Below are positions 34,695 through 36,810 of a stretch of 64,000 nucleotides of DNA, one piece after another. A program made the position numbers and the translations under genes. The notes under the pieces are model-generated. The model did no database searches and had not been told where the DNA came from. It saw only the letters and a list, made by a program, of their open reading frames with translations. Every line of letters begins with the position of its first letter. Position 1 is the first letter of the stretch. The DNA lies in the NCBI RefSeq assembly GCF_000308215.1, contig NZ_CAJE01000013.1, positions 124,001-188,000 on the forward strand. The letters are read 5' to 3'. This DNA comes from Methanomassiliicoccus luminyensis B10. Its GTDB lineage: Archaea; Thermoplasmatota; Thermoplasmata; Methanomassiliicoccales; Methanomassiliicoccaceae.

Positions 34695-35132
34695 ATGAAG
34701 CTCATCATCTACACCGACGGAGGGGCCCGCGGCAATCCCGGCCCTTCCGCGTTCGCCGTCGTCGTGACCGACGAGAGCGGCAAGGTCATCAAGGAGTTCG
34801 CCAGGTACGCCGGCAAGATCACCAACAACGAGGCCGAGTACAACGGGGCCATCGCCGGGCTGAACGAGGCGAAGGTCCTGGGCGCCGACGAGGTGGAGAT
34901 GGTGATGGACTCCGAGCTGGTGGTCAAGCATGTCAACGGCCAGTATGCCTGCAAGGCCTCCAACCTTAGGCCGAAGCTGGAGGAGGTCAGGAGGCTCATG
35001 GCCGGGTTCAGGAAGGCCACCTTTCGCCACGTCCCGCGGGAGAACAAGATGGTCTCGCGGGCCGACGCGCTTTTGAACCAGGAGCTGGACGTCATGTCCT
35101 CCCTCACCCCGCGAGGCGTCCCGAACAAATAA
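34695..35132 (+). CDS. rnhA: Ribonuclease HI
   Basis: Degrades RNA in RNA-DNA hybrids. Catalytic acids in YTDGGARGNPG (D), TNNEAEYNGAIAGL (E) and VMDSELVVKHVNGQY (D), with a final acid in SRADALLNQELD. 145 residues; resembles the compact archaeal/Bacillus YpdQ-like type with a short basic region. Starts 49 bases after panD in the same direction and 21 bases before the dodecin gene, possibly one transcript. A separate RNase HII is also encoded in the window. Confidence 0.94.
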   Translation: MKLIIYTDGGARGNPGPSAFAVVVTDESGKVIKEFARYAGKITNNEAEYNGAIAGLNEAKVLGADEVEMVMDSELVVKHVNGQYACKASNLRPKLEEVRRLMAGFRKATFRHVPRENKMVSRADALLNQELDVMSSLTPRGVPNK

Positions 35133-35153: not shown

Positions 35154-35369
35154 ATGGCGGGTGTTGAGATGGTCGAGAAGGTACTGGAAATAGTGGGCGT
35201 GTCCAACGAGAGCTTCGACAAGGCCGCGCAGGACGCGGTGAACGAAACGGCCAAGACCGTGCGCAACATACGGTGGGCGACCGTCAAGGAGCTGGACTGC
35301 AAGGTGGAAGGCAACAAGATCGTGGAGTACCACACCTTGATGCGCATCTATTTCGACGTGGAGAGATAG
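35154..35369 (+). CDS. Dodecin-family flavin-binding protein
   Basis: 71 residues; begins VEMVEKVLEIVGVSNESFDKAAQDAVNETAKTVRNIRWATVKEL and ends MRIYFDVER, the standard dodecin helix-and-sheet pattern, including the Trp (IRWATV) that stacks on flavin in the dodecameric hollow sphere. Probably stores riboflavin or FMN/FAD or CoA-related ligands. ATG 35154 or ATG 35169. Ends with TAG, one of few amber stops here. Confidence 0.92.
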   Translation: MAGVEMVEKVLEIVGVSNESFDKAAQDAVNETAKTVRNIRWATVKELDCKVEGNKIVEYHTLMRIYFDVER

Positions 35370-35465
35370 ACTGGCCTGGCGGGGGCCGGAGCGGCGCGCC
35401 CCATCCTACGGGGCGTGTTCAAGAAAATAGCACATCTTTATATAGAAGAACAGAATTAGGCAGGA

Positions 35466-35548
35466 TTAGTGCCTGAGGTCGGCGGCTCAACTCTCCTCCT
35501 AAGTAGTTTTCCTCCGAATCCCCACCAAGCTCCGGCCTCGGGCATCAC
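35466..35548 (+). ncRNA. Candidate small structured RNA with anti-SD-like loop
   Basis: A strong TATA box (TTTATATA, 35437-35444) has no gene after it; instead, starting near the expected initiation point, TGCCTGAGGTCGG (35470-35482) pairs with CCGGCCTCGGGCA (35532-35544), giving a 13-bp stem with two G-U pairs. The 49-nt loop contains UCCUCC twice (35494-35499 and 35510-35515), which could pair with GGAGG-type ribosome sites. It fills the gap between dodecin and the convergent hisS stop (35545). Not a tRNA or 5S RNA. It could also just be a terminator for hisS, or be chance. Confidence 0.4.
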
Positions 35549-36810
35549 TTATTCGCCCGTTCAATCTCCGGCAGCAGTTCTTCCAGCTTTACCATCTTCT
35601 GCTCCCCGGAGGTCATGTCCCTCACCGCCACCGAGCCGGAGGCCAGCTCCTTCTCGCCCACGATGACGGCATTCCTGGCGTTGATGGCGGCGGCATACTT
35701 GAAGTTCTTGGACATGTTCCTGCCCATCAGGTCCACTTCGGCGCTGACGCCCGCGCCGCGGAGCTGGCCGGCGATCCTGAAGGCTTGGTCCTTCACCGCC
35801 TCGGTGACCGGTATGACGTACGCGTCAACAGCGTGGGCGGGGGCTTGGAACCCTTCTTTCTCCAAAGCCAGAAGGGTCCTGTCGAACCCTATGCCGAAAC
35901 CGGTGGAGAATGTCCTCTCCCCGCCGAACAGCTCGGTGAGAGAATAGGAGCCGCCGCCGCAGATCTGCTTCTCCGCTCCCAGGGACGGCGCGTCCATCTC
36001 GAACACCATGCCGGTGTAGTAGTCCAGCCCTCTGACGACCCCCAGGTCGACCTCGACATTGGTGATGCCATAGTCGGCCAGGATGCGGAAGATGGCCTGC
36101 AGGTGCGCCTTGGCGTCGCCCCCGATCTTGTCCAGCGTACCGATCGGACCGACCGTTCGGGTGATCTCAATGACCCTCTCGATCTGCTCGGGGACCATTC
36201 CGGCGCCGGCCATGCGGAGGCGGGCCTCATCGTACTCCTTCTTGTCCAGCTTCTGCAGGATGGGGGGAGCGTTCTCCGCGGTTACGCCGGCCTCGGCCAG
36301 CATTCCCCGGAGCACTCCGATGTGCCCGATGCGGATGTTGTACTCCTTGATCCCGATGCGCTTCATTATGGAGGCTGCCAGGGCGATGACTTCAGCGTCC
36401 GACTCGGGGCCGAGGTTGCCGATGAGCTCGGCGCCGAACTGGAAGAACTCGCGGTACCGGCCGGACTGCGGCCGCTCGTACCTGAAGCACTGCCCGAAGT
36501 AGAACATCTTCAGCGGCCGGGGGGAGGTGGAGAGGTCGTTCACGAAGAACCGCATCACCGGAGCGGTGAGCTCGGGACGCAGCGAGATGTCCCTTCCGCC
36601 CTTGTCCTGGAACGCGTAGATCTCCTCCACCACGTTCGGTCCGGACTTGAGGGTGAAAAGCTCGGTGTGCTCGAAGATGGGGGTCGCGACCTCGCGAAAG
36701 CCGAACACCGCGGCCTCGGCGCGCATCAGGCCTTCCAGGTACCGCCTCTTCTCCATCTCCTCGGGGCCGAAGTCCCGGGTCCCCCTTGGCCTTTGGATCA
36801 TCCCTGCCAC
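35545..36810 (-). CDS. hisS: Histidyl-tRNA synthetase
   Basis: Class II synthetase of 421 residues. Motif 1 region RGTRDFGPEE and FREVATPIFEHTELF, motif 2 FYFGQCFRYERPQSGRYREFFQFGAELIG, the HisRS-specific GLDYYTGMVFE and motif 3 FSTGFGIGFDRTLLALE, then a C-terminal anticodon domain (residues about 330-415). Everything expected is present. ATG 36810 (alternative ATG 36801). Its 3' end touches the candidate RNA hairpin. Transcribed alone or after drg. Confidence 0.96.
   Translation of the reverse strand: MAGMIQRPRGTRDFGPEEMEKRRYLEGLMRAEAAVFGFREVATPIFEHTELFTLKSGPNVVEEIYAFQDKGGRDISLRPELTAPVMRFFVNDLSTSPRPLKMFYFGQCFRYERPQSGRYREFFQFGAELIGNLGPESDAEVIALAASIMKRIGIKEYNIRIGHIGVLRGMLAEAGVTAENAPPILQKLDKKEYDEARLRMAGAGMVPEQIERVIEITRTVGPIGTLDKIGGDAKAHLQAIFRILADYGITNVEVDLGVVRGLDYYTGMVFEMDAPSLGAEKQICGGGSYSLTELFGGERTFSTGFGIGFDRTLLALEKEGFQAPAHAVDAYVIPVTEAVKDQAFRIAGQLRGAGVSAEVDLMGRNMSKNFKYAAAINARNAVIVGEKELASGSVAVRDMTSGEQKMVKLEELLPEIERANK

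Follow-up and report, generated by a model that had tools for sequence, protein, structure and literature searches.

The window, the whole 64,000-nucleotide stretch of DNA that was analyzed, carries a plus-strand gene for an RNase H-like protein (34695-35132; PF13456, 2.2e-19), followed on the same strand by a dodecin gene (35154-35369; PF07311, 1.7e-21), which is found in only some relatives. Facing them on the minus strand is hisS, encoding histidyl-tRNA synthetase (35545-36810; PF13393, 2.4e-55). Between dodecin and hisS, the first-pass annotation had described a TATA box, a 13-bp stem, and a 49-nt loop displaying UCCUCC at 35494 and 35510, and direct reading of the sequence confirms this description. 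The 13 pairs, two of them G-U, form between TGCCTGAGGTCGG (35470-35482) and CCGGCCTCGGGCA (35532-35544), and the 49-nt loop that they close contains TCCTCC at 35494-35499 and again at 35510-35515. A covariance model built for the family, which scores 78.3 bits at its match in the organism's own genome, places a small RNA at 35468-35546 of the plus strand. Both predicted ends come from this model, the start being the first base of the helix. The arms of the closing helix lie at 35469-35482 (5' arm) and 35532-35545 (3' arm) of the plus strand and belong to a helix that spans 17 pairs in the family as a whole. It had been proposed that the RNA exactly fills the space between dodecin and hisS (35370-35544). 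It does sit at the hisS end of this space, where it runs two bases into the hisS stop codon (35545-35547), but it does not occupy the whole of it; its putative promoter also lies inside the gap.

Folded by itself, the 79-nt RNA (35468-35546) has a predicted energy of -29.6 kcal/mol, compared with -19.9 kcal/mol for shuffled sequences (z -3.43, with none of 200 shuffles as good). When the plus strand was folded with its flanks (131 nt), z was only -1.69 and 13 of 200 shuffles were as good; thus, the lone sequence is modest evidence, and conservation has to decide. The fold of the minus strand at the hairpin is unremarkable (z -0.11). At gathering thresholds, Rfam identified two tRNAs in the window and no match to the hairpin, and permissive scans of the window copy and five other loci gave chance-level matches only. 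The RNA was not found described in the literature searched on the topic, and the family is apparently undescribed.

Covariation of the two arms was assessed in two alignments of related copies. The first is a plain, structure-free MAFFT alignment of 37 copies, from which we removed duplicate rows, copies of less than 75 nt, and a Polyangiaceae match (L047) that we attribute to chance. In this alignment, 86.4% of the cells of the 17-pair helix are paired, and 11 of the 17 pairs show two-sided change. The covariation score is 0.336; shuffles gave 0.228, with none of 500 reaching the score, and sliding gave 0.141 at most. The second alignment contains 62 copies fitted to the model. It omits eight of 70 matches (E up to 1), comprising five minus-strand echoes, one chance match (L010), and two weak but true-looking copies (L124 and L127). 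Here 92.4% of the cells are paired, two-sided change is seen at 15 of the 17 pairs, and the score of 0.492, versus 0.256 for shuffles, was reached by none of 500. Fitting to the model biases the pair counts of the second alignment in the model's favor; the first alignment is free of this bias, and covariation of the arms is present in both. The 62 loop lengths are spread evenly across the three reading frames (23, 20, and 19), which is not the behavior of coding sequence. By the standard definitions of C/D and H/ACA boxes, inspection of sequence and fold revealed neither a RUGAUGA nor a guide pocket inside the helix, and Rfam gave no match. As judged from comparative sequence evidence, it is close to certain that the hairpin represents a real RNA gene.

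Several features indicate the strand and the probable start of this gene. At the window copy, an A-rich region and TATA box occupy plus-strand positions 35432-35445, with TTTATATAG at 35437-35445 and the TATA box starting 31 nt before the RNA. The 50 nt upstream of the 62 copies include an A-rich element (approximately -36 to -34) and an A/T block; positions -27 and -26 are A or T in all 62, and in 48 the best TATA-like 8-mer begins between -28 and -33. This TATA/BRE-like pattern, held at a near-constant distance, predicts that the gene has its own promoter on the RNA strand. In archaea, transcription starts at a characteristic spacing from the TATA box, and this spacing puts the expected start at the initial base of the helix. 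Across the 62 copies, reading the helix on the plus strand gives 130 G-U cells, against 25 on the minus strand, an asymmetry indicating that the RNA is the plus strand. The earlier proposal of a plus-strand small RNA gene with its own promoter is thus supported; in addition, the arms covary, and the first UCCUCC loop is kept in 59 of 62 copies. Modeled RNA lengths among family copies range from 67 to 86 nt. Many have a pyrimidine-rich 3' flank, which in some consists of CCCCCC followed by T runs. Five copies (L063, L064, L049, L050, and L053) carry AACCCCCC, a third C-rich motif, directly 3' of the helix; in some of these it is followed by a T run that resembles an archaeal terminator.

The same data bear on the idea that the hairpin is only a terminator for hisS, which its position at the hisS stop codon and its convergent orientation might suggest. 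We rejected this explanation as extremely improbable, because 37 of the 62 copies lie away from hisS, and because the predicted promoter is on the opposite strand, the wobble asymmetry favors the plus strand, and the loops are conserved. A mere hisS terminator was one of the outcomes that the first-pass annotation had set against its own proposal. Another was a failure of relatives to keep the arms and loops, and neither of these is what we observe.

Every one of the 62 copies resides in one of two contexts. The 25 hisS-side copies, like that in the window, have a convergent hisS gene 3' of the RNA and a same-strand RNase H-like gene upstream (25 of 25). In three loci (L057, L058, and L071) an extra gene separates the RNA from hisS, with the RNase H-RNA-hisS order intact; the extra gene in L071 and L058/L025 is one that we take to be formyltransferase-like. 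The other 37 copies precede the gene for the CCA-adding enzyme (cca), which is 3' of the RNA on the same strand, the RNA lying 37-146 nt before the cca start. Eleven further loci also contain cca, and the CCA-adding enzyme of the organism itself matches PF09249 and PF21133.

Given this synteny, we seriously considered whether the RNA is a cis element, either a leader of the cca mRNA or an antisense or overlap element at the 3' end of hisS. The common strand and short distance in 37 of 37 cca-side copies would fit such a role, as would the position of most hisS-side copies, right against the hisS stop codon. However, the cca starts have their own TATA-like A/T peak (-34 to -26), and only two of 37 carry an SD-like motif, so cca probably has a separate promoter and a leaderless mRNA, and the RNA is probably not its leader. 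Moreover, only the convergent hisS follows the RNA in 22 of 25 hisS-side copies, and the same loops are retained in both contexts. For these reasons the cca leader was set aside, and a cis element of either kind seems very unlikely. A riboswitch or other cis leader is likewise at odds with a convergent hisS and with a cca gene that appears to have its own TATA-like signal. Taken together, these arrangements suggest, at the level of sequence, an RNA that is independent of its neighbors. In four loci (L118, L121, L122, and L137) cca is seemingly leaderless, and some 30 nt ahead of its start there is a conserved GGAAAGTGTTAT, probably the BRE/TATA of the gene. With SD motifs mostly missing from cca, there is mostly no SD at this gene on which the RNA could act.

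The organism's own genome encodes a second copy, on contig C4, that was 82% identical in a DNA search. When 61 genomes were searched, 14 of the 15 from the same family, its own included, matched at E < 1e-16. A loop-pattern scan of one collection recovered 29 stretches, of which 28 are labeled as coming from Methanomassiliicoccales, Thermoplasmata/Thermoplasmatota, or other euryarchaeal genomes; the sole bacterial stretch was taken as chance. A first model (R1) matched 18 of 389 genomes of the phylum with E up to 0.001, and a second (R2) matched 48 of 147 genomes of the order. The latter are distributed over the window's own family (f1, 15 of 15), f3 (21), f6 (6), f4 (1), and f2, where the five matches are weak and all from one genus. 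Of 400 genomes sampled across the class, 59 gave a match; families f11, f18, and f62, which lie outside the order, account for 26 of these. The phylum, order, and class counts are lower bounds owing to strict search filters. The best explanation for the two contexts is a pair of ancient paralogs, one beside hisS (the window copy) and one beside cca. The cca-side locus, with its wider spread over families and its presence outside the order, is probably the older of the two.

We also selected 30 genomes, 27 of them with cca, and inspected the region upstream of that gene. Diverged copies that retain the helix and a shortened core were found there in f5 (L127) and f2 (L138), the latter with CUCCUUC in place of UCCUCC. 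No RNA was visible upstream of cca in the other f2 genomes shown or in L126. Most genomes of f2, a large family, thus seem to have lost the RNA, with only one genus retaining a diverged copy, and the f2 genomes examined keep cca.

Conservation is strongest in the loop, where two segments stand out. Segment 1, CUCAACUCUCCUCCUAAG in the window copy (35486-35503, plus strand), includes UCCUCC, and segment 2, UCCUCCGAAUCCCCACC (35510-35526, plus strand), has AUCCCC as its general motif. The family consensus is CUCAACUYUCCUCCU, extending to CUCAACUYUCCUCCUAAG, together with AUCCCC, and both are conserved as sequence. Unpaired UCCUCC and CCCC motifs are maintained across copies (59 of 62 and 62 of 62, respectively), ATCCCC is present in 55 of 62, and the full CTCAACTYTCCTCCT is found in 42 of 62. 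Information content over the 62 copies is 1.6 bits per column in segment 1 and 1.47 in segment 2; the helix has 1.09, and the value falls to 0.6 between the two segments, in the spacer. Loops that are near-invariant on a helix that changes freely argue that activity resides in the loop sequence. The claim of two anti-Shine-Dalgarno loops holds for the first UCCUCC. The second, at 35510, is specific to the hisS-side copies of the window's family: two UCCUCC motifs occur in 13 of those 14 copies and in none of the 37 cca-side copies, and most copies share AUCCCC at the second place instead. All 14 of these family copies contain CCTCCGAATCCCC. Two cca-side copies from a single genus (L074:1501-1567 in G033 and L078:1501-1567 in G016) have lost UCCUCC and kept the helix and GAAUCCCC. 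Since G016 has a second RNA copy besides the one lacking UCCUCC, the paralogs may have divided the work. An inner hairpin, AACUYU..ARAGUU, was noted by eye in some copies and not in all.

By analogy with known small RNAs, the loops suggest a trans-acting RNA that masks ribosome-binding sites, a reading that is the best supported of those considered and to which we give roughly even chances. Transcription would begin from the RNA's own TATA promoter at the base of the long helix and end in the pyrimidine-rich tail. The helix would serve as a scaffold that presents the two unpaired C-rich segments, and these would pair in trans with G-rich (GGAGG-type) ribosome-binding sites of mRNAs, lowering their translation. 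GGAGG sites are the complement of the loop core, and the 3' end of the organism's 16S rRNA is GGAUCACCUCCU, so sites of this type fit its own ribosomes. This mRNA-binding function is a hypothesis, which we examined using 249 start regions from 284 kb of the organism's own contig, with ORFs and starts called by a simple SD-favoring script; no SD-like motif was present in 97 of the 249 ORFs. The loops of the two copies paired with the start regions at -17.2 and -15.5 kcal/mol and more weakly with gene-internal windows (-15.2 and -14.1 kcal/mol). Pairing with the 249 start regions was not above that of shuffled loops (-18.5 and -15.9 kcal/mol); because shuffled loops pair as well, there is no signal beyond C-richness, and the ranking of targets by duplex energy is dominated by base composition. 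A search of 15 genomes for the 18-nt complement, allowing up to three mismatches, identified no mRNA with long conserved complementarity. All matches with zero or one mismatch fall inside copies of the RNA, and those with three resemble background, their number being of the order of the reversed-pattern control. Two top-ranking candidate targets carrying GGAGGAGAG were rejected because neither proved to be conserved. One, a pyridoxamine-oxidase-like gene by Pfam, was matched in 14 of 15 family genomes, with off-locus matches at 28-40% identity that offer no close ortholog for comparison; the other, a 106-aa ORF, matches only itself, in one of 15 genomes.

These results leave some room for a different use of the C-rich segments, namely as a platform for a protein, such as a KH-type or Sm-like C/U-rich binder, with the RNA acting as a sponge, a scaffold, or a stable RNP. 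Anti-SD pairing would require only part of the conserved segment, which keeps a protein-binding role in play. Loop conservation reaches well beyond UCCUCC (at the 1.6 bits per column of segment 1), and neither an rRNA match above shuffles nor a conserved mRNA target emerged. Against this stands the perfect complementarity of the core to a widespread type of ribosome-binding site. We know of no protein partner of the RNA, and we regard the platform as a tentative, somewhat unlikely account.

The RNA might instead be a guide or partner of the translation or tRNA machinery, interacting with rRNA or tRNA. This would explain why 62 of 62 copies adjoin hisS or cca, both genes for tRNA enzymes. However, the longest complementarities of the loops to the organism's own 16S and 23S rRNA are at the shuffle level, the best being 9 nt (23S), with a frequency of 0.15 among shuffles, and rRNA pairing was rejected on this basis. 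Most of f2 also lacks the RNA, yet the f2 genomes examined retain cca. Thus, such a role appears quite improbable. It is also unlikely, if marginally less so, that this ancient RNA family competes globally with the ribosomal anti-Shine-Dalgarno, selectively damping SD-led mRNAs while leaderless ones such as cca escape, with the cca and hisS loci coupling its expression to tRNA pool status.

Masking of ribosome-binding sites by small RNAs has precedents. Gram-positive bacteria possess C-rich-loop sRNAs of the LhrC, RsaE, and FsrA type. Compared with these, the RNA described here has an archaeal host and promoter and has one long closing helix with one large loop. Rfam scans showed no sequence relation to them, and its targets are putative. 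According to the portion of its description drawn on here, LhrC occurs in several copies per genome and has redundant CU-rich motifs able to pair with the SD, and the likeness is that of a small intergenic RNA present in more than one copy with repeated unpaired UCCC or CU-rich motifs (PMC4132741). Two further precedents are sRNA154 and sRNA41 of Methanosarcina mazei, which are described, in the part of the source used, as intergenic archaeal sRNAs that mask ribosome-binding sites (PMC5867862). The comparison with these is by description only, and masking by the RNA of the window is proposed by analogy. In the same account sRNA154 is conserved in Methanosarcina, whereas the RNA here is found in families of another class at two fixed loci. 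A third M. mazei RNA, sRNA162, masks a ribosome-binding site by means of an unpaired region; as far as the cited description goes, just two close relatives have homologs of it, and the linker is its most variable part (PMC3510493), in contrast to the RNA here, in which the loops are most conserved.

Overall, the RNA constitutes a well-supported new archaeal family of a known general kind, unusual in its reach and in its two loci beside tRNA-enzyme genes. It has been kept, with near-invariant loops and in two fixed neighborhoods, across several families of one class that includes methanogens. To our knowledge, few archaeal regulatory RNAs are known, and for this one a covariance model and exact coordinates are ready for use. 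Its loss in f2 could reveal genes that depend on it. If it does act on ribosome-binding sites, SD-led versus leaderless translation in archaea would become directly testable.
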